From NCBI GenBank assembly GCA_947629385.1, contig CANRDO010000002.1:1-64000 (forward strand): 64,000 bases of DNA, written 5' to 3'. Of the stretch, positions 2,084 through 53,812 are shown one piece after another (position 1 is the stretch's first letter; each line of letters starts with the position of its first letter). The notes under the pieces are model-generated. The model was not told the origin of the DNA and made no database searches. It worked only from the letters and a program-made list of their open reading frames with translations. The stretch comes from an uncultured Lachnospiraceae bacterium. Lineage in GTDB: Bacteria; Bacillota; Clostridia; Lachnospirales; Lachnospiraceae. The position numbers and the translations under genes were made by a program.

Positions 2084-2137
2084 AAAAAAAGCCAAGCGCC
2101 GGACATTCACATGCCCAGACGGTCGGCTCCCCTTGGC
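2084..2137 (-). terminator. Riboswitch-controlled terminator ahead of purO
   Basis: On the minus strand GCCAAG (2132-2137) can pair with CTTGGC (2091-2096), followed by seven T (2084-2090). The 5' arm lies inside the riboswitch fold, so ligand binding and termination should be mutually exclusive. This is the usual layout of a transcriptional ON switch for ZTP. Confidence 0.8.
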
Positions 2138-2178
2138 TCATACTCCCTGTGGGTTCTCCCACTTCCGTCAGTCATATG
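2112..2178 (-). promoter_or_regulatory. ZTP (pfl) riboswitch
   Basis: Read on the minus strand the leader shows the pfl-motif signature in order: a GACTG segment, a small GTGGG-AGAA-CCCAC hairpin, GGGAG, and the downstream CCG-CCG-TCTGGGC block that closes the pseudoknot. ZTP (or ZMP/AICAR) signals folate shortage, and the two genes below consume AICAR and FAICAR. Sequence match and gene context agree, and an overlapping terminator supplies the expression platform. Confidence 0.9.
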
Positions 2179-2187
2179 AGCAGATTC

Positions 2188-31554: not shown

Positions 31555-33018
31555 TTAATTATCTTTTAGTTTTGTCAGTTGCTTTATGCTATTAATGGCA
31601 GTTTTACGCTTTAAGAAGACAGCAAAAGAAATTATAATAATAAGCAAATATCTGATTAATGTAAATTTATATGTCACCATAAAAATAAATCCAACAACTA
31701 TAAATGCTACAGATATAAGTATAATTAGTTTAGTACTATATGGCTGCTTGCATTCTGTCTGCTGCCTACAGATTTTAGCCATAAAGAAGTAATGAAAAGC
31801 AGCATATAACATATCGCAAAATAGAGTTGTATATCCGGCTGCCTGATATCCACACAATTTGATCAATATGTAATTGAGAACTATATTCATCAAAGCGCTT
31901 GTCATAGTGGAAACCATAACATATTGCGTTTTTTCATAATAGAATTCAAATACAGAGAAAAAGTAATATATAAATGTGAAATACACGCTCATCGCTACAG
32001 GAGGAACGACCCATATTGCCTGATAATACTCCGGCGGAGCAAAAATTCGGATTACTTCCGGAGCTATGGAAATAAGAATAATATTTACTCCTGCAATGAT
32101 AATAAAAGCCATATATGCTATTTTGGACATTTTTTCAAATTGCTTCTCTTTTATCTTTTTGTAAAGCCAAGGTTCTATAGTTTGAAGCAACGCGGCATTA
32201 AACATTGTCATAATAAGAGAAACAGAATACGCAAGATTATATATGCCCGCCTCACTATTACCTACCATTTTACTTATCATTATCCTATCCGAGCCGCTCA
32301 GAACAGATGATGAAAGATAGTGGGGAATCAGGGGTAGATTAAATAAAATTGCATATTTCCAAAATCTGAATGAGAAAAACTTTTTTCCTTTTATTATCTG
32401 GAATATAAAAATACCTATATACGCAATTAAGTCAACCGCAACCATTCCGAGAATGCGGGCGGTAACCTTATCCTTTGCTCTATTAACGAGCAGAATTCCC
32501 AAACTCGGCCGCACTAATGAAACAATGAGCGTAAGCGCAACTAACTTTCGATAGCTCAACACCACTCTCTGCTCTGAAGCCCAAAACTGGAAAACAGTAG
32601 CAAGCCATATTATCGCTATCATAGAAATAACTTGAATAGTTGTTAGCGACAAAAGGCTGTTAAAATAATTTCTTAAAGGTATGTAAATAAGTAAGGACAA
32701 AACAGTTAAAGTAAAGCTAAGCCCCTGCATTGAGGAGATAAATTCTTTTCTATCCTCACTGTAAAGAACAAGACCTCTAGTATATGAACTTCTATCTAAA
32801 TTAAGGGTTATAATAACAGCTAATAGCCCAGACCATGTATTAAAAACACTAAACTGACCATATTCGTCAGTCGTCATTAATCTGGTAAAGATTGGTGTCG
32901 TTATACTCGAAATACCCTTTTGCAAAAATGCACAGATTAAAAACCAAAATGCTGCACGAGCTTGAACAGGTAAGCCTTTGTATTTATTTATCATGTTTCT
33001 AAGAAGAAGATTCTTCAT
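31555..33018 (-). CDS. wzx: Polysaccharide flippase, Wzx type
   Basis: This 487-residue protein with about 14 predicted membrane spans begins RAAFWFLICAFLQKGISSIT and contains FNLPLIPHYLSSSVLSGSDR near residue 225, typical of MOP-superfamily (PST) flippases. It would move the undecaprenyl-linked repeat unit across the membrane for polymerisation by Wzy. AT-rich codon use matches its neighbours and differs from the flanks. Confidence 0.9.
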   Translation of the reverse strand: MKNLLLRNMINKYKGLPVQARAAFWFLICAFLQKGISSITTPIFTRLMTTDEYGQFSVFNTWSGLLAVIITLNLDRSSYTRGLVLYSEDRKEFISSMQGLSFTLTVLSLLIYIPLRNYFNSLLSLTTIQVISMIAIIWLATVFQFWASEQRVVLSYRKLVALTLIVSLVRPSLGILLVNRAKDKVTARILGMVAVDLIAYIGIFIFQIIKGKKFFSFRFWKYAILFNLPLIPHYLSSSVLSGSDRIMISKMVGNSEAGIYNLAYSVSLIMTMFNAALLQTIEPWLYKKIKEKQFEKMSKIAYMAFIIIAGVNIILISIAPEVIRIFAPPEYYQAIWVVPPVAMSVYFTFIYYFFSVFEFYYEKTQYVMVSTMTSALMNIVLNYILIKLCGYQAAGYTTLFCDMLYAAFHYFFMAKICRQQTECKQPYSTKLIILISVAFIVVGFIFMVTYKFTLIRYLLIIIISFAVFLKRKTAINSIKQLTKLKDN

Positions 33019-33022
33019 ATAA

Positions 33023-34096
33023 CTATTTCCTTAAACCCTTAGTATAAGCTTTTCTTGTACGTAACAATTCTTTTTCACGATATATATGACTTATGACCCA
33101 AGATGAGTTTATACATAATAGGAAGTATACAAACAGTAATTTTTTATTACATTGCTTGATCGATATATTCTTCTTAAGGTAATCATCATTGATAAACTCT
33201 ACAAGAATCATTTTAACTGCACCCTTATGGTCAGGAGGAGAATCATTTCTAAATAAATTTGATAATCTCAAACTATACATTTCAATTTTCCTCAAGCATA
33301 GATTTGTCTTACATAAAGGCCTTAAATTATAATCATCTAAAACTTTATTCAAAGCCTGATCAACTTTTTTTAATGTATCATCGAAATCGGGCCAATAATG
33401 TTCTAACGTAGAATTACTGTGTTTCACATAATGGTATCTGACGCAATTCAAAACCAGCAAAGAGCTTAGTCTACATAACAGTTGTACACAAAAAACTAAA
33501 TCTTCTTGTATGTGTAATTCCTCATCAAATAAAAGATCGGCACCAATTTCTTTTCTAAATACAAACCGCCAAGCAGAACCCATAATCAATTTATTCTGTC
33601 TGGATCCGGAGAGCATATTCGGAATAAGTTCAGATTTAATGCGCGAACTGTCAAGAACCGTTTCGTCATCCCACGGCAATAAATCAATCAGTTTTCCTTG
33701 TTCTTCACTTTCAAACTCATGTTCGATTGCATATATAGCAGCTTCTGCATTAGAGACCGCTAAACGATTTATGATTGTTTCGTAAGCATTAGGATCAATA
33801 GAGTCGTCAGCATCCACAAAAGTAATATAATCACCATGGGCAAATTTTATACCCGAATTTCTCGCCGCAGATACTCCGTGATTATTCTGATTCAGCAATA
33901 TAACTCTTGAATCCTGTTGAACAATTTCTTCAATTAAGTTCGCGCTATTATCAGTGGAACCGTCGTTTACAGCAATTATTTCTACATTTGAATAAGTTTG
34001 TGCACTAAGGCACTTCAAGCACATTGCAATATATTTTTCACTATTAAATACAGGAACAATTATGCTCAATAATGGACTTTTTTCTGTATTACTCAT
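33023..34096 (-). CDS. Glycosyltransferase, GT2 family
   Basis: This 357-residue protein starts at 34096 behind AAGGAGG. It has a GT-A fold with SIIVPVFNSEKYIAMCLKCL at the N-terminus, a nucleotide Asp motif NDGSTDN, and the metal motif FVDADDSID near residue 95. The ATG overlaps the wzy stop by eight bases. It adds one sugar to the lipid-linked repeat; specificity cannot be told. Confidence 0.9.
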   Translation of the reverse strand: MSNTEKSPLLSIIVPVFNSEKYIAMCLKCLSAQTYSNVEIIAVNDGSTDNSANLIEEIVQQDSRVILLNQNNHGVSAARNSGIKFAHGDYITFVDADDSIDPNAYETIINRLAVSNAEAAIYAIEHEFESEEQGKLIDLLPWDDETVLDSSRIKSELIPNMLSGSRQNKLIMGSAWRFVFRKEIGADLLFDEELHIQEDLVFCVQLLCRLSSLLVLNCVRYHYVKHSNSTLEHYWPDFDDTLKKVDQALNKVLDDYNLRPLCKTNLCLRKIEMYSLRLSNLFRNDSPPDHKGAVKMILVEFINDDYLKKNISIKQCNKKLLFVYFLLCINSSWVISHIYREKELLRTRKAYTKGLRK

Positions 34097-35285
34097 TACT
34101 GATCCTCCTTCGAGAGCCAAAATATAAATGGAAGGGCTTCGCTTTTATACCCCTTCCTTGCAAATTTGGTTCTCTGTTCACCGCATAGATTGCAAACAAT
34201 GCAAAATAGAAATTGTAATCAAATGATATTTCTACAATCGAAGCGACAATCATAGCATATAAAAGACCATATAAACCATCATATTTTTCAGATACATGTC
34301 CAGATGAACATTTATAAACTAATCCCAAAAATATAACAAGGCCTATAATTCCATAGTTAACGATAATTTGGAAAAAGCCGTTTTGAATATTACCATAACC
34401 AACTATTTTTGTTACTATAGTATTGCCATATCCATATCCTAACCACTTATTGTTAGTTATAATGGATATAGCATTTAGGTATATTTTTTCTCTACCGTTG
34501 ATATTTAGTCCTTCACCAAAAATGTCAACAACAAAATGCTGTATCTGAGGAATACTCATAATTGCTTGGAAAGCTGTAATCATAGCAGTTGTAATGAAGA
34601 TCGACAATAGCACAAACTTACCGTTTTGGACGAATTTTCTAAACGCACCCGGAACAAGCAAATATGCCAACATAAATATTGCTGCAATCATTGATGTAGT
34701 GCAGTATATCCATTTACTCACTAATATACACAAAACAGATATAACGATGAAAAGTGCTTTCCAAAAGATTCTTTTATTGAATTTCTCGTAATAGCGGATC
34801 CAAAACAAAGCTGCTAATTGAATAAACAAATAACCTGTGGCAAACTTGTTCCCAACAAAATAATATATAGGCAACCTGTTACTAGTACCTAGTGCAACTA
34901 TAGAAATAAGCGAGGCAAGGCAATATAACGTAGTCATATAATAAAATACATTAAACAAGTTATTAATATAATCATTTTCACTGCAATAAATACATATACT
35001 GCATATGCTATATAAGCATATTGCATAGAGTATGCTGTCCAAGATGCCTCGAGAAAGAATATAGTTATTCCAATACGCATAAACGCCTGCAACTATTATA
35101 ACTAAGCAAAAAGGTATTGAGATATTAAAAAGTTTTTTGAAGCTCAAATTAGTGAGCAAAAAAACAAGTATTGCTAATATAGCAATAATCTTTGTCGCTT
35201 GCTGTATCCATGTAGGAATTATGTAGATCTTAAAAAAAGCAAAATACAGCAAGACGCAAATCAAATCTATCTTTTTAACCTTCAT
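34089..35285 (-). CDS. wzy: O-antigen/capsule polymerase, Wzy type
   Basis: This 398-residue protein starts at 35285 behind TGGAGG. It has about 11 membrane spans and one large external loop near residues 255-310 containing EGLNINGREKIYLNAISIIT and WLGYGYGNT, the pattern of Wzy/WaaL-family polymerases. It would polymerise repeat units on the outer face. Low similarity among family members is normal; topology and gene context give the call. Confidence 0.82.
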   Translation of the reverse strand: MKVKKIDLICVLLYFAFFKIYIIPTWIQQATKIIAILAILVFLLTNLSFKKLFNISIPFCLVIIVAGVYAYWNNYILSRGILDSILYAICLYSICSICIYCSENDYINNLFNVFYYMTTLYCLASLISIVALGTSNRLPIYYFVGNKFATGYLFIQLAALFWIRYYEKFNKRIFWKALFIVISVLCILVSKWIYCTTSMIAAIFMLAYLLVPGAFRKFVQNGKFVLLSIFITTAMITAFQAIMSIPQIQHFVVDIFGEGLNINGREKIYLNAISIITNNKWLGYGYGNTIVTKIVGYGNIQNGFFQIIVNYGIIGLVIFLGLVYKCSSGHVSEKYDGLYGLLYAMIVASIVEISFDYNFYFALFAIYAVNREPNLQGRGIKAKPFHLYFGSRRRISNE

Positions 35286-35316
35286 GCAGCAATCCTCCAG
35301 GCGATATTTTATATGT

Positions 35317-36339
35317 TTATGCCATCCCGGCCAGCGTACATAAATACAGTAAATACGCAAGCTTATGTTTCAAAGCAAATAGGAAAAATCTTTGATTGAG
35401 TTTTAGCTTTTGAACGGGATATTCCTTAATAGTCTCTTGCAATATAGAATTTTGACAATACTGTTTTATATTTGATATTGCCTTCGACGCCTTATTAACA
35501 CTCTCCCAATGAATACAACTTCTTGTATTTGAGAACAACATTTTATCCAAACGATAAATATCTTCTGATCCATAGCCTAATTCGATGAGCCTGTTTTTAA
35601 CATATGTGTGAAATCTCACGCAAGCCTCAAACCTATCGGAACGGTAGCTTTTCGTGAGTGATGTTTCATTGTACCGATAATTATAGCCAATATGAGATAC
35701 AGTACATGCGCCATTGGCATATTGCATATATTCGATATTAAATATAATATCTTCAGAAATAAGCACTCTCTCTGATGGGAATTTGATGTCATACTCCTTA
35801 ATAGGTGATGTTTTATAAAGACTTCCCCAAACTGCGGAACCTAACATATCCTTTTTCTCTGGTGATGATCCTATAGTCCTGAGTAGAAATGTTTTTGCAG
35901 CCTGATTTCCGGGAAACACCTCATCTTGATAATGCATGTTGTAAGTAATTCTTCCGTCTCCGTAAACATTACGCCCACAGCTTTTGCTTACGTCTACACC
36001 ATTCTTCTTAATCGCTGTAAACAGTATTTCAATCAAATCTGGATCAAGATAATCATCAGAATCCACAAACATTACATACGCGCCCGTCATGTATTTCATG
36101 CCAGTATTCCGTGCCATTCCAAGGCCAGCGTTTTCCTTATGGACTGCTATAAAGTTCTTATATTTTTCCGCATACTCTTCACATATCGCTCCACAATTAT
36201 CAGGCGACCCGTCATCAACCAGGATAACCTCTATGTTTTTATATGTCTGTGCAAGTATGCTATCTAGGCACTGCCTCAAATATGGTTCCACTTTATATAT
36301 TGGTACTATTACACTAATTAACGGTGTTTCCTGTTTCAT
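35317..36339 (-). CDS. Glycosyltransferase, GT2 family
   Basis: This 340-residue GT-A protein has SVIVPIYKVEPYLRQCLDSI at the start, VDDGSPDNCG near residue 40 and the metal motif FVDSDDYLDP near residue 92. It belongs to the EpsJ/CpsI-like branch. Its 5' end would overlap the acyltransferase gene if the G8 tract there shifted frame. Confidence 0.9.
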   Translation of the reverse strand: MKQETPLISVIVPIYKVEPYLRQCLDSILAQTYKNIEVILVDDGSPDNCGAICEEYAEKYKNFIAVHKENAGLGMARNTGMKYMTGAYVMFVDSDDYLDPDLIEILFTAIKKNGVDVSKSCGRNVYGDGRITYNMHYQDEVFPGNQAAKTFLLRTIGSSPEKKDMLGSAVWGSLYKTSPIKEYDIKFPSERVLISEDIIFNIEYMQYANGACTVSHIGYNYRYNETSLTKSYRSDRFEACVRFHTYVKNRLIELGYGSEDIYRLDKMLFSNTRSCIHWESVNKASKAISNIKQYCQNSILQETIKEYPVQKLKLNQRFFLFALKHKLAYLLYLCTLAGMA

Positions 36340-42000: not shown

Positions 42001-42644
42001 ACGCCAAACTCATTCTCCTCAATTATCAAACATATTGTGTGATACACCGGCAGATGCAGCTCCTGCACCATATAGGTTTCTGTTTCCGGTACCCGTATGC
42101 ACACGTCCGCCATATCGCTCAGCTTGCTCTCCTTCTGCCCCGTCAGCCCGATTACTTTCATGCCTTTTGCTTTAGCTGTGACCACGGCATAAAGCACATT
42201 TTTGCTGTTTCCCGAGGTTGAGATACCGAGAAGAACATCGCCCTCGTTACCGTAACCGTTGACCTGTTGGGCAAAGCATAAAAGTGGCTCGCAGTCATTT
42301 TGATAGGCGGTCGAGAGCGCCGGGTGCCCGTCCAAAGCTATTGCAGGAAGCGCTCCTTGCAAGTTCTCGGCAAGGGTTTTACCGAGTTCCGGGTTTACGG
42401 CTATAAGTCTGTCTGCATATTCCTTCGGAAGCTTGCGCAAATTCTTGAGGCCCTTCATCAGCTCGCCGACGATATGCTCGGCGTCGGCAGCAGATCCTCC
42501 GTTACCGGCAATAAGGAGCTTTCCGCCGTTCGCGTAGCAGGACTCAATCAGTTCGTAAGCCTTCATTATATCGTCCTTGCAGACTGCAAGCTGCGGGTAT
42601 CTCTCAATCAAAAGGTCAAGCTGGGCTTTAGCTTTCTCGGTCAT
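41997..42644 (-). CDS. gmhA: Sedoheptulose-7-phosphate isomerase
   Basis: This 215-residue SIS-domain protein has AGNGGSAADAEHIVGELMKG near residue 46 and GISTSGNSKNVLYAV near residue 137. It converts sedoheptulose 7-phosphate to D-glycero-D-manno-heptose 7-phosphate, the first step of heptose synthesis. It overlaps the end of the broken hddC-gmhB gene by 17 bases. Confidence 0.93.
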   Translation of the reverse strand: MTEKAKAQLDLLIERYPQLAVCKDDIMKAYELIESCYANGGKLLIAGNGGSAADAEHIVGELMKGLKNLRKLPKEYADRLIAVNPELGKTLAENLQGALPAIALDGHPALSTAYQNDCEPLLCFAQQVNGYGNEGDVLLGISTSGNSKNVLYAVVTAKAKGMKVIGLTGQKESKLSDMADVCIRVPETETYMVQELHLPVYHTICLIIEENEFGV

Positions 42645-43876
42645 ATCTATCCTCCAAAATCTCCTCGACCGCTTTCAGCAGATCTCCATCGGTCGGGATA
42701 ATTTTCGCTTTGCAGCCTGCCGCTTCTCTTGCGCCTCTGTCATGCTCGCCGTCGCCTATCATATACGACTGCTCAAGGTTCATGTTGAAGTCTTTTGCCG
42801 CTTGAAGCAACATTCCTGGCTTCAGCTTGCGGCAGTTGCAGTCGAATTTGAGTTCTTTGACTTCTGCTGTCGGGGTGATGCGGGCAGAAGTAAATGCCGT
42901 CAAGATATGCGCCGTGCCTGCCGAGCAGAGTCTCCATTTTGTTATGTATCTCGTTAAGCTCTGCAAACGTTACCTCACCGCGCGCGATTACAGGTTGATT
43001 AGTTACTACTATTGCAAGATAGCCCGAGCGATTTATTAGCTTTATTGCCCAGAGACCATCGGCAAAAGCTCAAAGGCATCAATATTTCTCAGGAATCCGA
43101 CATATTTGTTGATCGTCCCGTCGCGGTCTAAAAAGATTGCTTTTGCTTATTTCTGAGATTTCTTGCGAACACCTTGCCGCTCTCAAAATCTTTTGAGACT
43201 GCCTCAAATCTCTCCAGCATACCCATATCCTTTACGTACTCTGGGCTGTTATAGCAGAACATTTTGCTGCTGCTCGCAAGAGGCTTAAGCAAGTGCCGAT
43301 CTAAATCTATTTTCGGCAGGTCAATGTCGTTTTCCAAAAGCTTCGGAGAAATGATGTGCAACCCCGCGTTAACGCAGTTTTTATAAAAATCGGGTCGTTC
43401 GTCCTCTTTGGCAAGCCATTTCTGAACGGATTTGTTCCCGTCCGTAATAATCAGTCCACTGTCATATGGGGGTCGTTCGGATGGGCAAACACCGTAACAA
43501 GGGCTTTATGTTCTCTATGAAACGCCACAAAGCGGTTGAAATCTATATTGAATACAGAGTCGGCGTTCAGAAGCAGAAAATTTTACGTCAGCTTATCTTT
43601 CAGTCTGAACAATGTACCCACATTTCCGAGCGGCTTGTCCTCAACGAAGTAATCTATATGTGCGCCAAGACGTTCTCCATCGCCGAAATATTCAATTATC
43701 TTACTCGCCATACGGCTGATGATGAGGATTATGTCGGTGAAGCCTTGTTCGCGCAAGCACTCTATTTCGTGCTCCCAAACGGGCTTTCCGCATATAGGAA
43801 TTAGCGGCTTCGGAATATCCGGAAAAAATTCTGAAATTCGAGTACCCTTCCCGCCGGACATTATTACCGCCTTCAC
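42628..43876 (-). pseudogene. Broken hddC-gmhB fusion (heptose guanylyltransferase and bisphosphate phosphatase)
   Basis: From a GTG at 43876 (overlapping the hddA stop) the sequence reads an HddC-type nucleotidyltransferase (SGGKGTRISEFFPDIPKPLI), then an in-frame TAA near 43583 after KDKLT. The frame then continues NFLLLNADSVFNIDFNRFVA. About one base is lost near 43470 at HPND/PYDSG, restoring IITDGNKSVQKWLAKEDERP. Near 43137 one A is lost between RNKQK and AIFLDRDGTINKYVGFL, the HAD start. A G is lost near 43050 in MVSG-AIKL, and a gap occurs near 42880 before VKELKFDCNCRK. That is at least five lesions, so neither domain can be made intact. Confidence 0.88.
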
Positions 43877-45243: not shown

Positions 45244-45762
45244 TCAGTTCCCTGCAGCCTTCCTCACAATCTCCAGCCCTACTTTCATCCTTGTGATCCG
45301 GCCGAAGAACTCCACCTCCAGCACGGCCTGCCTGTCGTGCCGGTCCACATATACCACCTTGCCCGTCAGATCCTTCAGCGGCCCTTCCGTGACGACCAGC
45401 GTCCTCCCGATATACTCGCCTGTGCTGACCTCAAATACCTTGTCCTTGTTGATATGTTTCTCCAGAAAATCGACCTCATCCTCGTACAACGGAATCGGTC
45501 CTTCCTTATCGCCCAGAAGCTTCGTGAACTGGGGGATGGTTTTCAGAGCCTGATACAATCTGTCCGGATCCTCCGTCACAAAGAACAGATATCCGGGAAA
45601 GAGGACTTTCTGCCTCTTAACCCATACCCCGTTTTCCTTCCAGGGCTTCTCATATTTCGGGAGGAAACATTCCTCATAGACATTCCTGCTTCCCAGCTCC
45701 CGGTCGCAGGCTATCCTGACCTGCTCCTCACGGCCGGTCTGCACCCATACCGCGTACCACAT
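45244..45762 (-). CDS. loaP: LoaP-type transcription antiterminator (NusG paralogue)
   Basis: This 172-residue protein starts at 45762 (MWYAVWVQTGREEQVR). An N-terminal NusG domain contains KRQKVLFPGYLFFVT near residue 55, and a C-terminal KOW region has VTEGPLKDLTGKVVYVDRHD near residue 130. The family promotes readthrough of long polysaccharide and secondary-metabolite operons in Firmicutes. The gene lies between the initiating transferase and a 25-kb run of co-directional glycan genes, exactly where such a factor is expected. Confidence 0.9.
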   Translation of the reverse strand: MWYAVWVQTGREEQVRIACDRELGSRNVYEECFLPKYEKPWKENGVWVKRQKVLFPGYLFFVTEDPDRLYQALKTIPQFTKLLGDKEGPIPLYEDEVDFLEKHINKDKVFEVSTGEYIGRTLVVTEGPLKDLTGKVVYVDRHDRQAVLEVEFFGRITRMKVGLEIVRKAAGN

Positions 45763-45966
45763 TTCTTTGCACACCCTTTTTCGTATTGAACTGCCACGCT
45801 TACGGCCTATATGCTCCTGTTTTTGCCATGCCGGTCACCGTATTTCAGGGCAGGCTTCGCCATACCGCGCATGCTTTGTACTCCGTGTGCGCGGCTTCCT
45901 TCCTCCCTATGTCAGCAGCTTCCCGCAACGTGCCCTAAGCAACGATTGTTTTCCGCTGCATCCTCC

Positions 45967-47439
45967 TCACATCGCACCCTCCCGCCGGAAAACAACACCT
46001 ACTGTTTTCAGCAGGATCTTCAGGTCCAGCCACAGGCTCCACCCGCTTATGTACTTCCGGTCCAGCTCCACCACTTCCTCGAAGTCTGTGATGTTGCTCC
46101 TCCCGCTCACCTGCCACAGCCCCGTGATCCCCGGACGGATCGACATCCGCGCACGGTGGTGCGCTTCATACTTCTCCCACTCGTCCACCGTCGGCGGACG
46201 CGTACCCACCAGGCTCATATCGCCCTTCAGCACGTTAAAGAACTGCGGGAACTCGTCCAGGCTCAGGTCACGGATAAAGTTACCGATACCCTTCCTGTAG
46301 GTCCCGTCCGGCAGGACCCTCGATCCGATGATTCGCGGATCCTCCTCATACTTGAACATCATCTGCCCGTCCAGACCGCAGGCCGCGGCTATCTCCGCCT
46401 TGCGTGACTCCGCGTCCGGGTACATGCTGCGGAACTTGTACATCTTGAACTTCTTCCCGTTCCGCCCCACGCGCGTCTGCGCGAAAAAGATCGGGCCGGG
46501 CGAGCGGATGTAGATGAAGGGGGCGATCACGACATACAGAAGCCCGGTAAGCAGACAGCCGATCAGTCCTCCGAGGATGTCGATTGTCCGCTTCGCGAAC
46601 GCCTGCCCCAGCGTGACGCTGCCCAGGCTGTAGGTCAGTACCATGTTGCCTCCCAGATATTCCACGGTCTGCGTCTGCTCCGCATACCGTCTCAGGCCTT
46701 CCAGTCTGATATGTACAATCAGTCCCATCTCAATCAGGGTCTGATATAATTCTTCTGTATTCGGCGCTGCCACCAGCACCTCGTCCACCCATTCCCTTTT
46801 GAGGTATTCGACGACGTCCTCCCGGCAGGCTGCCACCGGCACGCCGTCGATCTCCTTCCCCCGCATGTCCAGGTCGACGACTGCCATCCCCGGAATCTGG
46901 TACAGCCCGTGGCTGTTCTGCAGGACGCTCTCAACGACCTGCCGCGCGTTCTTTGACGTCACGATCAGGAAGAGGACGTTTCTGTCCCTGATCGGGTTCT
47001 TCCGCAGGACCACCTTCCATCCGAGCCGCACCGGCAGCGTCAGGCAGAAATAGACCGCGATCATCGTATAGTAGAACACGCGTGAATAGGTTTCCCCGCT
47101 TTGCACGGAAAACATGTAGAACGACACCGTGATCGCAAGCAGGACGGTATGAACCAGCGTGGTCGTGAATTCCTTCCGGAAGCCGCGCTTCAGCACGTCC
47201 GACAGGCGGCTGAAAAACACGAGGAGCAGGAGATCCGTCATCGTGAAGATGATCGCGATGGCCCGGTAGTCTTCTATGGCGTAAGGATTTTGGAAGCCGT
47301 GGCGTACCATGTAGGCAAACACGAACGCCACATGCAGGCACAGCAGGTCCAGCACGATGAAATCAATGTGCTTCAGCCAGCCCTGTGTGATCTTCCTGTA
47401 CATAACCGCCTGCCCCCTAACGTGCCAACATAGCCGCAT
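45967..47439 (-). CDS. Undecaprenyl-phosphate sugar phosphotransferase (WcaJ/CpsE type)
   Basis: This 490-residue protein has four to five N-terminal membrane spans, a CoA-binding-like middle domain (about 140-250) and a C-terminal bacterial sugar transferase domain. Landmarks there are KRTIDILGGLIGCLLTGLLY near residue 293, FAQTRVGRNGKKFKMYKFRS near residue 335, and DLSLDEFPQFFNVLKGDMSL then GTRPPTVDEWEKY. It starts polymer synthesis by moving a sugar phosphate to undecaprenyl phosphate. Confidence 0.93.
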   Translation of the reverse strand: MRLCWHVRGQAVMYRKITQGWLKHIDFIVLDLLCLHVAFVFAYMVRHGFQNPYAIEDYRAIAIIFTMTDLLLLVFFSRLSDVLKRGFRKEFTTTLVHTVLLAITVSFYMFSVQSGETYSRVFYYTMIAVYFCLTLPVRLGWKVVLRKNPIRDRNVLFLIVTSKNARQVVESVLQNSHGLYQIPGMAVVDLDMRGKEIDGVPVAACREDVVEYLKREWVDEVLVAAPNTEELYQTLIEMGLIVHIRLEGLRRYAEQTQTVEYLGGNMVLTYSLGSVTLGQAFAKRTIDILGGLIGCLLTGLLYVVIAPFIYIRSPGPIFFAQTRVGRNGKKFKMYKFRSMYPDAESRKAEIAAACGLDGQMMFKYEEDPRIIGSRVLPDGTYRKGIGNFIRDLSLDEFPQFFNVLKGDMSLVGTRPPTVDEWEKYEAHHRARMSIRPGITGLWQVSGRSNITDFEEVVELDRKYISGWSLWLDLKILLKTVGVVFRREGAM

Positions 47440-47464: not shown

Positions 47465-49630
47465 TCAGCTGACTCCGAGTTCTGCCAGCTTCTTCCTGCG
47501 GTCCTCGCTCATGCCGGAACGGCACGTTTCCTTCTGTTTTCGTATCCAGCGTCCCAGATGGCAGCCGTCCTCCGTCACGTAGGCGACCGGGATATTCAGG
47601 TTGCCGTATTTCTTCCGGTAACGGCACGCCGCTAAATAAGAGCGCTCCCATACGACATTATTCTTGTTGCTCCAGATCATTCCGAGTTCGTCCAGCCTCG
47701 CGATCTGATCCTCGCTCAGCTCTGCCCGGCCGGCGCCTCCGTTTCTTCTGGCAAACCTTGTATTTGCAATCCAGACGCCAAGCTTCACGCCGTCCGGGTC
47801 TACGTAGTAGTATGGGACGTCCAGATCCCCGTATTCCCGATGGTACCGCACCGCCGCGTGGTAGTTCTGCTCCCAGAGATAGTCCGGCACGTCCCAGACC
47901 ATCCCGATTTCCTCCAGAGCCGCCTCACGTTCGGGCGTCAGATAACTTGTGCGGATCCCGCTCTTCCGGTAGGTGCGCAGCTGCGCCAGCCATTTGCCCA
48001 GCTCCACGCCCTGGTATTTCCCGTCCCGCACGTTCACCAGAAGGTTCCCGTGTTCCCGGTAATACACCTGCGCCGCCGAAAAATATCGCGCCCAGTTCCG
48101 GTCAATCTTTGACTCCCAGCGCATGCCCAATCTGTCCAGTCTTGCGATCTGCGCTTCCGTGAGGACGCCCTTTGCCTTCCCCGCCCGTACCTTGCGCTGC
48201 GTGTCCAGCCACTGCCCCAGCGACAGTCCGTCCTCCGTCACATACCGCTTCGTCGCTTCCAGATCCCCGTGTTGCTCGAAATACTGCTCCGCCGCCTGAT
48301 ACATCAGCTCCCACGAGGCGCCCAGCGTCTCGTTCAGTCTGCGGAACAGCCTCATGCAGTCCTGCACCTCGTCCGTGATGTGGAAATGTTCGTTCACGAT
48401 AAGGCTGCCTTCCCCGCGGTCCCGATAGTATCGCACCGCGGCCTGCATCTCGTCCTCGACCGTACCGATGCTGTACAGGTTCTCTATGTTCATCACTACA
48501 TCGAAGATCACAGCATTCTCGTCCTGCTTTCTTCCCGCGGAAAGCGCACGTCCGATCTGCTGCTTGTAGATGATCGGCGAGACCGTCGGCCGGAGCAGGA
48601 TCACCCCGCTCACGTCGTCCACATGGATCCCTTCATTCAGCATGTCGATGCAGAACAAGAGCTTCAGGTGACCGCTCCCGTCCGCCTTGAACCTCGCAAA
48701 CTCCGCCTCCGCCCGCGCGTCCTCCGAGTAGACCGAGTAGACGTGCGGCTCCGGGTCCACCTTCGCGAACCACTCCGGGACCTTCGCGATCATCTCCTGC
48801 ATATGCTCGTAATCCGCGCAGAAGACAAGATACTTCCCAAACCGCCCCGGCAGCCCTTTCTTCCGCGGCTGCACAGCTGGTTCTTTTTCTTCGGGCGGAT
48901 CTTCTCCCGCCATGTGTTTCCGGAAGACCTCGTCCAGCCCGTCCGCCTTCTCCAAAGCGCGCCGCAGGGCCTCCAGATATTTGTCCGCCTCCGCGCGCAC
49001 TGCGCTGTTTTTTGCCCCTTTCACTCGCGCCTTGTAACGCTCCAGCTCCTTCTGGCAGGAATACGTCGACAGCACGTATTTCGGCGGGTTCAGGATGCCG
49101 CGCACGATCGCGTCCCCGAGCGTCATCTCCGAGGCGATGTTCCCGTCGAACAGCTCGTCCGCCATGTCCCGCTGCCCGTCCAAGTAGCGGATGTTCGTTG
49201 CTGAGAGTCCGAGTACCGGGACGTCCGGGTACCGCTCCAGCAGCCTCTGCACGCCCTGTCCCCACATCTTCGCACCGCAGCGGTGAAACTCGTCCAGGAT
49301 GATGTAGTCCGGCTTTAGCCCTTCAAGCTCTTCCTCCTGCATCAGCATGAGCCTCGCGTAGGTGAGGAAGCGGATGTTCGTTTCTTCCGGTTTATCTGCA
49401 GGCATACCGGCCGCCCGCCAGTTCTCCAGCTGTGTCCGGAAGATGTATTCCGAGGGCGCAAGCCAGCACACGGTCTTATCCGGATGATCCTCGCACAGCT
49501 GGAAGGCGATGAAGGACTTCCCCGTGCCGGTCGGATGGATCACGGCCGCGCGGCCTTTCTCCGCCAACATGGCGAGAACGGCTTCGTATGCGGTTTGATT
49601 GTGTTCATACAGCCGAATGCCCATAGTCAT
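47465..49630 (-). CDS. DEAD/DEAH helicase with four C-terminal helicase-associated (HA) repeats
   Basis: This 721-residue superfamily 2 protein has motif I VIHPTGTGKSFIAFQLCE near residue 34, motif II IILDEFHRCG near residue 110 and motif VI IIYKQQIGRALSAGRKQDE near residue 355. After about residue 440 come four HA repeats of about 65 residues, each of the form W-x3-Y-x2-A-x2-Y-x3-H/Y-G-(D/N)-L and ending L-G-M-x-W. The substrate is unknown. It is the first gene downstream of the invertible segment; the ATG at 49630 follows AAAAGGATGA, which lies just outside the inverted repeat. Confidence 0.88.
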   Translation of the reverse strand: MTMGIRLYEHNQTAYEAVLAMLAEKGRAAVIHPTGTGKSFIAFQLCEDHPDKTVCWLAPSEYIFRTQLENWRAAGMPADKPEETNIRFLTYARLMLMQEEELEGLKPDYIILDEFHRCGAKMWGQGVQRLLERYPDVPVLGLSATNIRYLDGQRDMADELFDGNIASEMTLGDAIVRGILNPPKYVLSTYSCQKELERYKARVKGAKNSAVRAEADKYLEALRRALEKADGLDEVFRKHMAGEDPPEEKEPAVQPRKKGLPGRFGKYLVFCADYEHMQEMIAKVPEWFAKVDPEPHVYSVYSEDARAEAEFARFKADGSGHLKLLFCIDMLNEGIHVDDVSGVILLRPTVSPIIYKQQIGRALSAGRKQDENAVIFDVVMNIENLYSIGTVEDEMQAAVRYYRDRGEGSLIVNEHFHITDEVQDCMRLFRRLNETLGASWELMYQAAEQYFEQHGDLEATKRYVTEDGLSLGQWLDTQRKVRAGKAKGVLTEAQIARLDRLGMRWESKIDRNWARYFSAAQVYYREHGNLLVNVRDGKYQGVELGKWLAQLRTYRKSGIRTSYLTPEREAALEEIGMVWDVPDYLWEQNYHAAVRYHREYGDLDVPYYYVDPDGVKLGVWIANTRFARRNGGAGRAELSEDQIARLDELGMIWSNKNNVVWERSYLAACRYRKKYGNLNIPVAYVTEDGCHLGRWIRKQKETCRSGMSEDRRKKLAELGVS

Positions 49631-49640
49631 TCATCCTTTT

Positions 49641-49666
49641 ACAACATTATCTGTATAATGTAGTGC
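49641..49666 (+). repeat. Left 26-bp inverted repeat of the invertible segment
   Basis: It is an exact inverted copy of 50030-50055. It contains CATTATCTGTATAATG, itself two 7-bp arms (ACATTAT/ATAATGT) around a 4-bp centre, the form of a tyrosine recombinase crossover site. It lies 10 bp ahead of the helicase ATG. Confidence 0.95.
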
Positions 49667-49708
49667 AATAAGTAAGCAGATACTGCCGTGTAATCAAAGT
49701 CGTGAATT

Positions 49709-49737
49709 ATAATAGCACTTTCAATCCGAAATAGCAA
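49709..49737 (-). promoter_or_regulatory. Leftward promoter inside the invertible segment
   Basis: TTGCTA (49732-49737), 17 bp, TATTAT (49709-49714) on the minus strand. An overlapping TATAAT is also present. The predicted start lies about 70 nt ahead of the helicase ATG, with the left repeat in the leader. Confidence 0.6.
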
Positions 49738-49783
49738 GAGATACATAAGTGGTAAATTTTTATATTTGACTTATTTTAAATTG

Positions 49784-49789
49784 TATAAT
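49784..49789 (+). promoter_or_regulatory. Rightward -10-like TATAAT inside the invertible segment
   Basis: A perfect TATAAT at 49784-49789 has TTGACT at 49766-49771, but only 12 bp apart, too close for sigma-A. With the terminator at 49952-49989 it could still define a rightward RNA of about 190 nt. Support is weak. Confidence 0.3.
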
Positions 49790-49951
49790 CACAGAATTTT
49801 CTGAATATAGAGATAGAATGATCGAAAAAGCCTGTATCAGGTTGCGATATGCTGAAATCCAGCCGGGAAGCCTGAATTCCGACCGGATTTTGGCATGCAA
49901 GAAAGGCCTTTGTATAAAAAGATACAAAAGCCGATGCAAAAGATATCACTG

Positions 49952-49989
49952 GGGTCCGCACAGTCGAAGGGCGTGGGGACTCTTTTTTT
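49952..49989 (+). terminator. Rightward terminator-like hairpin inside the invertible segment
   Basis: GGGTCC (49952-49957) pairs with GGACTC (49977-49982) with one G-U pair, followed by seven T (49983-49989). In the inverted state it would lie between the segment and the helicase. Confidence 0.5.
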
Positions 49990-50029
49990 GCTTGAAAAAT
50001 TCAACGTGTTCGATGTGCAAAGAAGCGGC

Positions 50030-50055
50030 GCACTACATTATACAGATAATGTTGT
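50030..50055 (-). repeat. Right 26-bp inverted repeat, inside the recombinase 3' end
   Basis: It is an exact inverted copy of 49641-49666. It encodes the last codons (TTLSV) and contains the stop of the recombinase, so the crossover site is part of the recombinase gene. Confidence 0.95.
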
Positions 50056-51003
50056 GCTTTTTTTATTTTGTCGTTGTCCCGGCTTTCTCCCGCCCCCGGC
50101 CTTTCCGGCCTTTTCCGGATCCCGCTCCCCTCTTTCTCCGATCTTGCGCAGAATCTCTCTCATCATCCGGTCGACACGCGCCCTGACCTCGCGCTCTGTC
50201 CTCCTGACGTAGATCATCGTCGTGTTAACGCTGCTGTGTCCGAGCAGGCAGGCAAGCTGCGCGATATCGTGCGAACTCTCATAAAACATTCGCGCGAACA
50301 ACTTCCGGATATTGTGGGGGAATACCTTATCCTCGCCGACGCCCGCCTTTTTGCACAGGCGTTTCATCTGCCTCCAGAAATTGCTCCGATCTACGGGTCT
50401 GCCGCTGCGCGTACGGAAAATCACGCCCTCTTTGATCCTCCGCTTCCTGATATAAGCGGAAAGTTCCTCGCGCAGTCCGTCCGGAATGATGATCTCCCGG
50501 CTTTTCCTTTTGCAGGAGACGCGGATGCTGGTTCGCCGCTCCTTTTTCCGGATTGCCTCCACGGTGAAGTATTTCAGCTCGGAAACACGGATTCCGGTTC
50601 CGGCAAGCACCTTCAGCATCATCTGCAGGCGCTGGTTTCCCTCCGCGGCGTTCAAAAGTCTCCGGTATTCTTCCATCGTAAGGCTTTTGTTTTCCGGGCA
50701 ATACGGCATTTCCTGCGTGCGGAGCCTTGCGACGTTGCAGTCGTCTCTTCCCAGGTATTTGAAAAGTCCCCGCAGGGACGCAAGCATGGAATTGATACTG
50801 CTGTCCGCGTATTTTCCGGACTCGATCAGATATCTTTTGTAATCGACCGCAAGCTCCTTCGTGAGCGGCCGGCCGGAGGCGAAGCTTCGGAACGCCTCAG
50901 CGTCCCGGATGTATTTATCAATCGTGTACGGACTTTTTTCGTTGGTGCGCAGGTATCTGCCATATGCGGTAAGTATTTCCTCATTCAGTGTCAATGTATT
51001 CAT
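50038..51003 (-). CDS. Tyrosine recombinase, probable invertase of the adjacent switch
   Basis: This 321-residue protein has an N-terminal SAM-like core-binding domain (about 8-95, with SPYTIDKYIRDAEAF). In the catalytic domain LAGTGIRVSEL near residue 137 holds the first Arg, FPHNIRKLFARMFY near residue 230 holds H-x-x-R, and LLGHSSVNTTMIYVRR near residue 255 holds the His and the Tyr nucleophile. The tail is very basic and Gly-rich. It is not accompanied by phage or ICE genes. Because its 3' end carries one inverted repeat, local inversion is its likely job. The ATG follows AAAGGAG. Confidence 0.93.
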   Translation of the reverse strand: MNTLTLNEEILTAYGRYLRTNEKSPYTIDKYIRDAEAFRSFASGRPLTKELAVDYKRYLIESGKYADSSINSMLASLRGLFKYLGRDDCNVARLRTQEMPYCPENKSLTMEEYRRLLNAAEGNQRLQMMLKVLAGTGIRVSELKYFTVEAIRKKERRTSIRVSCKRKSREIIIPDGLREELSAYIRKRRIKEGVIFRTRSGRPVDRSNFWRQMKRLCKKAGVGEDKVFPHNIRKLFARMFYESSHDIAQLACLLGHSSVNTTMIYVRRTEREVRARVDRMMREILRKIGERGERDPEKAGKAGGGRKPGQRQNKKSTTLSV

Positions 51004-51084
51004 TTGTGCTTTCTCCTTTCAGAAAATCCCGGTTTTCATCCTTATATATAGAAATATAGTAAGCTTTTCCAGATGTATCAATCC

Positions 51085-51113
51085 TTGACCACCTGCACAT
51101 AACATGCTATAAT
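51085..51113 (+). promoter_or_regulatory. Promoter of the toxin-antitoxin operon
   Basis: TTGACC (51085-51090), 17 bp, TATAAT (51108-51113), about 33 bp ahead of the antitoxin ATG. Confidence 0.8.
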
Positions 51114-51146
51114 ATTTCTACAAATTTATCGAAAGGAAGTGTGCAT

Positions 51147-51419
51147 ATGCCTACGATTGCACCAGTCTCTGATCTGAGAAATTATGGTACTATTTTGGAA
51201 AAAGTATCTGCCGGATCGCCTGTTTACCTGACGCGGAACGGTCATGGTGTGTACAGCATCCGAAATATGGAAGATGAAGAGAATTTTCAAAAAGCAGAAG
51301 CTATGATACGCTTGATGTGTGAGTTGAATGCGGGTATCCGCTCCGCGGAGAAAGAGGGCTGGGTTTCTGACGACGAACTCCGCAATCATTTTCAAAATAG
51401 AAGGAACTCGAAGAAATGA
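51147..51419 (+). CDS. Antitoxin, Phd/YefM-like
   Basis: This 90-residue protein starts at the ATG at 51147 behind AAAGGAAG; a GTG two codons earlier is too close to the ribosome site. The N-terminus MPTIAPVSDLRNYGTILEKV and the following VYLTRNGHGVYSI match the Phd/YefM fold that binds DNA and the toxin. The C-terminal part is a charged helix that would cover the toxin. It overlaps the toxin gene by four bases. Confidence 0.88.
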   Translation: MPTIAPVSDLRNYGTILEKVSAGSPVYLTRNGHGVYSIRNMEDEENFQKAEAMIRLMCELNAGIRSAEKEGWVSDDELRNHFQNRRNSKK

Positions 51420-51760
51420 TTTATTCAATACGATATTCACCGGAAGCTGTACGCGATATGGATATGGTTTGGGATGGCGTTTTAAAAGCTTCCGGAAGCT
51501 ACGATATTGCAGATCGATATATCGACGAATTAAGGGCTGTGATTGCTGCAAAAAAGGCTTACCCTTTTTCCGGAACCCCGCTTCAATATCGTGGTTTATT
51601 TACCGGATTCTATTCTATAAATTATAAGAAATACAAGATATTCTATCGTGTACATAACGGTTTCATTGAAGTAGCCAGGGTCATTATGGCAAAACGTGAT
51701 TATATGAGGATACTTTTTGGCGAATCGGAGGGATCAGAAGAAGCAGAAGATGAACTTTAA
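51416..51760 (+). CDS. Toxin, RelE/ParE family
   Basis: This 114-residue protein begins MIYSIRYSPEAVRDMDMVWD and has a central YKIFYRVHNGFIEVARVIMA, the ParE/RelE fold. The end carries an acidic tail (GESEGSEEAEDEL). It would inhibit gyrase or cleave mRNA on ribosomes when free of the antitoxin; sequence alone does not decide which. A strong terminator follows at once. Confidence 0.9.
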   Translation: MIYSIRYSPEAVRDMDMVWDGVLKASGSYDIADRYIDELRAVIAAKKAYPFSGTPLQYRGLFTGFYSINYKKYKIFYRVHNGFIEVARVIMAKRDYMRILFGESEGSEEAEDEL

Positions 51761-53640: not shown

Positions 53641-53812
53641 AAAGCCCAGTCTCCATGAAGAGCGGACAACAAGTTCACTTGTTCGTCCGCTCATCCATGA
53701 GAGACGCTAATCCGTATGAGCAATACAGCAGCACGAACAGATGTGAGTGCTGCGATTTGCGAATGCGGATAGGATTGCGAGAGCACATAGTGCGAAGCAA
53801 TCCGTGGGCTTT
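53641..53812. repeat. Hairpin-rich intergenic element with outer inverted ends
   Basis: Outer ends AAAGCCCA (53641-53648) and TGGGCTTT (53805-53812) are inverted copies. Inside are three stems: GAGCGGAC with AACAAGT (53660-53674) against ACTTGTT and GTCCGCTC (53677-53692); GCAGCAC/GTGCTGC (53728-53734/53747-53753); and GGATTGC/GCAATCC (53772-53778/53797-53803). It fills most of the gap 53612-53867. It may be a dispersed palindromic repeat or a structured leader or terminator RNA. Confidence 0.7.

Follow-up and report, generated by a model that had tools for sequence, protein, structure and literature searches.

The window analysed here, 64,000 nucleotides (64 kb) from a Lachnospiraceae genome, contains a non-coding segment of 363 bp (49667-50029) that lies between a tyrosine recombinase gene and a co-directional, ~30-kb polysaccharide locus of the Wzx/Wzy type. 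The segment is bounded by a left inverted repeat of 26 bp on the side of the helicase gene that begins the locus (49641-49666) and by a right repeat of 26 bp on the recombinase side (50030-50055). The two repeats, 363 bp apart, are 100% complementary (26 of 26 bp) and constitute the sole perfect inverted repeat of at least 14 bp in the window at spacings of 60-1200 bp. Inverted pairs of 26 bp are expected by chance in the window at about 1e-8, and the sequence-only reading that first drew attention to perfect repeats around non-coding DNA was well founded. Both repeats contain ACATTAT-4-ATAATGT, with the core ACATTAT-CTGT-ATAATGT at 49644-49661 on the left and the corresponding core at 50035-50052 on the right, in agreement with the 7-bp arms and 4-bp centre that had been proposed. 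Together with the outer bases, the ACATTAT/ATAATGT sequences form arms of nine or ten bases, which is a usual arm size for tyrosine recombinases.

The segment carries a sigma-A-type promoter on the minus strand (49709-49737; TTGCTA-17-TATTAT, with a TG before the -10 element), located about 40 bp from the helicase-side repeat and pointing into the helicase and glycan locus. This leftward promoter had been suggested as a candidate, and comparison with related switches bears it out. Among switches with the window's class of site, hereafter class 1, a TTG-N3-17-TATYAT promoter occurs at an equal distance from the core site in 9 of the 9 compared, and a TGCTTAC stretch between promoter and repeat is common to all of them except the most distant, L087. 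Two oppositely facing terminator-like hairpins had escaped the sequence-only reading. The stronger, on the plus strand (49951-49990; -19.5 kcal/mol, followed by U7), faces away from the locus as assembled and would face it upon inversion. The other, on the minus strand (49905-49932; -13.9 kcal/mol, weak U tail), faces the locus upstream of the promoter, and read-through from the recombinase gene would end there. The earlier judgement that the switch is ON is right for the assembled state, in which the conserved promoter points into the locus; an assembled orientation represents the majority of a population rather than the state of a single cell.

The recombinase gene (50038-51003, minus strand) encodes a Xer-like tyrosine recombinase of 321 residues, a probable invertase, with a SAM-like N-terminal domain and a catalytic domain of the R-K-HxxR-H-Y pattern (PF00589, 2e-28; PF02899, 1e-8). 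All six active-site residues (R139, K167, H230, R233, H256, and Y265) are present and the reading frame is intact. The protein scored far under the curated NCBIfam cut-offs for XerC, XerD, and XerA, and on this basis it was not classed as a housekeeping XerC or XerD. As had been noted before, the adjacent gene ends inside the right repeat, which codes its last codons and stop codon. Since the stop codon lies within the repeat, inversion does not alter the recombinase sequence. A promoter-like site for the gene, TTGATA-17-TATATT (51053-51081, minus strand), lies outside the invertible segment. Beyond it, a second, strong promoter-like site (51085-51113) accompanies two genes that diverge from the recombinase (51141-51760, plus strand), one a small antitoxin-like ORF and the other encoding a ParE-type toxin.

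The first gene of the switched locus (47465-49630, minus strand) encodes an SF2 helicase with four HA domains (PF03457) and intact SF2 motifs (GTGKS, DEFH, SAT, and QxxGR). Translation probably begins at the second ATG (49624), giving an N terminus (MGIRLYEHNQ) of a form conserved in relatives; the distance from the repeat to the gene is then about 16 bp and not the 10 bp given previously. AlphaFold gave a helicase model of poor quality (mean pLDDT 60.6, five sequences), whose fold matches to XPB, RadD, and SNF2 indicate only an SF2 translocase. Downstream on the same strand are an initiating sugar transferase of the polyprenyl glycosylphosphotransferase type (45967-47439; Bac_transf and CoA_binding_3) and a NusG-KOW family protein (45244-45774), a specialised NusG paralogue in a LoaP/UpxY-like position within the glycan operon. 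Specialised NusG paralogues of the LoaP type are encoded inside long biosynthetic operons; the likeness here is one of family and position, and the NusG-KOW gene is third, behind the helicase and the sugar transferase. The remainder of the locus runs co-directionally from 45243 to 19310 (minus strand), confirming the gene run to 19.3 kb described earlier. It includes a Wzy_C-type polymerase/ligase (34089-35360), a Wzx-like Polysacc_synt flippase (31555-33018), a heptose kinase, a GmhA-like isomerase, epimerases, WecG/TagA, glycosyltransferases, acetyltransferases, a sulfatase-family protein, PEP mutase, phosphonopyruvate decarboxylase and aminotransferase, UbiA, and HAD proteins. The gene set is that of a complete locus for a capsule or an exopolysaccharide. 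The sequence-only reading was thus correct in calling it a glycan locus, but its first gene is an HA-domain SF2 helicase and not a glycan enzyme, and the NusG-like gene and the further switches of the genome had been missed. The whole 30 kb may be transcribed as one unit; gaps of 230-360 bp and one decayed region (42630-43876) mean that internal promoters or ends are possible. In the decayed region (minus strand), genes for a heptose-branch sugar-nucleotide transferase and a HAD phosphatase are interrupted by a stop codon and shifts of frame, while the remainder of the ON-reading locus is intact.

The genome contains at least three switches, that of the window and one each on contigs C46 and C30, and all have the order switch, helicase, and glycan genes. 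The three helicases are close copies with 83-85% identity. On C46 and C30 repeats of a second class, AATGAAGT-5-ACTTCATT, precede the helicase gene, and a sugar transferase gene comes after it; the genes upstream of these two switches, for phosphatidylserine decarboxylase and beta-galactosidase, are unrelated metabolic genes, and no recombinase adjoins either switch. The arms of class 2 differ in sequence from those of class 1. Exact matches to the class-2 site were found in 5 of the 47 species of the genus searched and a reversed-pattern control gave none, while a third class, CCCTTAGT-5-ATTAAGGG, occurs in other species. Within every intact switch the two spacers match each other; between loci the spacers differ and the arms are fixed. 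The distinct spacers of the loci within one genome are real, yet they would also be expected by chance. A search for matching sites beside the 12 tyrosine recombinases of the genome gave no convincing trans-acting enzyme for class 2. One class-2 site, at L102, has a XerD-like gene beside it, but this gene was discounted because it probably encodes the housekeeping XerD. That the window's recombinase also serves class-2 sites, with which it co-occurs in the genus, is disfavoured, as genomes G331 and G242 have class-2-type sites and no relative of this recombinase. Judged by their arms and distribution, the class-2 sites would need another enzyme.

Sibling genomes share the order recombinase, repeat, segment, repeat, and helicase, and in them the homologous segment is found in both orientations between colinear flanks. 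Between locus L050 of sibling G005 and locus L101 of sibling G069, the recombinase and helicase sides are colinear at 83-90% identity, and the reversal of the segment (85% and 93% identity) runs precisely from one repeat to the other. The segment of the window is reversed relative to L069, L050, L072, and L073 and lies the same way as in L101, L103, and L076; the class-2 segment of L048 is likewise reversed relative to L066 and L049. Both orientations therefore occur at orthologous and at paralogous loci. Assembly breaks give a second line of evidence. Two further switches of G005 are split between contigs, with the helicase-side contig starting at base 1 of the repeat and the other flank stopping, in both cases, exactly 77 nt from the outer edge of the repeat. 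Contig ends also fit a value of 77 at L054, a switch of the window's site class, and at L099. Of 25 exact class-2 sites, 7 are no more than 80 nt from the end of a contig, where 0.26 would be expected (Poisson tail 1e-8). For an assembly with k=77, a value that we deduce from these ends, a repeat of 24-28 bp alone would not break the assembly, whereas a fork created by two orientations would, and the breaks are thus probably the mark of both orientations in the reads of the siblings. Reversed segments, colinear flanks, and breaks at repeats all support the on/off layout proposed in the sequence-only reading; for the window's own copy, we infer inversion from these relatives.

We propose, with high confidence, that the locus is a phase-variation switch in which the adjacent recombinase inverts the 363-bp promoter segment and so turns the capsule locus on and off. 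The recombinase would bind both 26-bp repeats, and crossover inside their matching central spacers would invert the segment. In the ON orientation the sigma-A promoter at 49737-49709 would read across the left repeat into the HA helicase and the ~30-kb polysaccharide locus. With the segment turned to OFF, the promoter would be directed towards the recombinase gene from its 3' side, and the strong terminator would face the locus and stop transcripts running on from that gene. Roles for the helicase and the NusG-like protein may lie in aiding transcription of so long an operon or in selecting among loci.

The strongest competing explanation, which we nevertheless consider unlikely, is that the segment is invertible through another recombinase acting in trans, as for Mpi in Bacteroides and RecV in Clostridioides, the adjacent gene being incidental. 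Mpi is a serine recombinase, and RecV of Clostridioides difficile works on several sites in trans. Some enzyme must serve the class-2 switches on C46 and C30 in trans, as neither adjoins a recombinase, and any of the 11 other tyrosine recombinases of the genome might act on the window's segment. The two systems look separate, however, given the differing class-2 arms and the two genomes with class-2-type sites and no relative of the recombinase. Moreover, relatives of the recombinase at 39-85% identity nearly always have inverted repeats just 3' of the gene, in varied genomic settings, and for this reason the adjacent enzyme appears to be the best candidate invertase for class-1 switches. The pattern extends to at least 8 of 10 further relatives (39-71% identity). 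The repeats of some relatives precede VWA/Cna-B or LPXTG surface proteins, including adhesins, or else genes for an acyltransferase (L103) or a NusG-like protein (L091). Another species of the genus has recombinases ~50% identical to that of the window next to inverted repeats, with genes for giant VWA/Cna-B and LPXTG-anchored surface proteins following (L105, 2029-9876; L106, 2593-8499). At L091 (6810-7644), a related recombinase and a 231-bp inverted-repeat segment stand directly ahead of the NusG-like gene, a layout near that of Bacteroides UpxY.

A second alternative is that the DNA was formerly invertible and is now locked ON in this strain; in its favour, the three switches of the genome were all assembled straight through, without the contig breaks of the siblings. 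Repeats that are still identical at 26 of 26 positions, beside a recombinase whose frame and active site are intact, make such a frozen switch very unlikely. A short stretch of non-coding DNA that ends in perfect inverted repeats and has homologues elsewhere in the genus might also recall a small MITE-like mobile element, or its remnants, with an incidental promoter, but MITE or insertion-sequence ends were rejected and this origin is scarcely credible, as the flanks (...CATCCTTTT and GCTTTTTTT...) show no target-site duplication, homologous segments keep the same place relative to recombinase and helicase, and both orientations are found with the promoter at a fixed distance from the repeat.

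The promoter-inversion switch of the window has counterparts beyond the genus. In other Lachnospiraceae genera HA helicases also lie behind repeat-bounded promoters, although several there show no repeat, and the first gene behind an HA helicase is a glycan or NusG gene in at least 36 of 45 loci, a count summed over families that should not overlap. Across Lachnospiraceae, HA helicases appear from these sequences to head glycan loci behind switches, several per genome with up to seven resolved, mostly OFF. States were called from the direction of the best promoter-like site and, for class 1, also from the conserved motif. Of 30 switches in the seven genomes with at least three resolved, 4 were ON, a bias towards OFF with P = 6e-5. 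The numbers ON per genome were 1/3, 1/4, 1/5, 1/4, 0/3, 0/7, and 0/4 and never exceeded one; mutual exclusion of ON states was not significant by permutation for these seven genomes and 30 switches (P = 0.40). In G242, which belongs to another genus, seven resolved switches before HA helicases (L135, L176, L177, L179, L181, L182, and L183) are all OFF in the assembly, and a further two copies of the helicase are found close to contig ends. At L050 (6032-11277), L101, L054, L082, and L083 a single switch precedes two HA helicases in tandem, with a NusG-like gene after the pair in L050, L101, L054, and L083.

The closest known parallel is capsule (CPS) phase variation in Bacteroides fragilis, with Mpi, UpxY, and the cross-locus inhibitor UpxZ (PMC12632263). 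In both systems several polysaccharide loci per genome each stand behind a promoter bounded by inverted repeats, a regulatory-type gene heads the locus, and a NusG-family protein is encoded in the operon. Unlike the single global invertase of Bacteroides, the class-1 switches of Lachnospiraceae have their own adjacent tyrosine recombinase, and site classes differ between the loci of one genome. The NusG-family UpxY is first in the Bacteroides operons, whereas here an HA-domain SF2 helicase is first and the NusG-like gene third; the repeat sequences differ as well, and the host is a Gram-positive member of the Lachnospiraceae. The switch works like the Bacteroides capsule switch but is built from another recombinase, other repeats, and another head gene, and it is not a member of that system. 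A survey of hCom2 (PMC11892184) describes inverton group 139 and its invertase group 35 in Clostridia, where inverted-repeat promoter segments lie beside a tyrosine recombinase whose own expression does not depend on the inverted promoter. The main text of the survey says nothing of helicases or glycan loci for this group, which by its description may include relatives of the switch. In C. difficile, also a Gram-positive anaerobe, the RecV-type switches use a site-specific recombinase and inverted repeats to control surface traits, but their targets are flagella, a cell-wall protein (cwpV), and a signalling system (cmr) and not helicase-headed capsule loci (PMC5386303, PMC2784873, PMC6837544). 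We found no description of HA-helicase-headed switches in the open-access literature. Promoter inversion as such is already known, and what is new is the recurrent, helicase-headed, multi-locus architecture. A tentative and rather doubtful extension is that multi-locus capsule switching in Lachnospiraceae evolved independently of that in Bacteroides, with the locus-specific HA helicase, a dsDNA-translocase-like SF2 protein, serving as a processivity or exclusion factor of its operon such that each cell makes a single capsule at any one time.

Capsules subject to phase variation influence how susceptible cells are to phages and how the immune system recognises them, and Bacteroides offers the best-known examples. 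The loci described here represent a parallel, repeated capsule-switch architecture in Lachnospiraceae, a dominant Gram-positive gut family. Their conserved tags, namely the arms of the recombination sites, the promoter spacing, and the HA helicase, allow loci to be found and scored as ON or OFF in existing reads, and the genomic context gives the unstudied HA helicase family a testable role. The window additionally contains a Clostridiales-1 RNA (53641-53812, plus strand) and a ZMP/ZTP riboswitch (2106-2185, minus strand).
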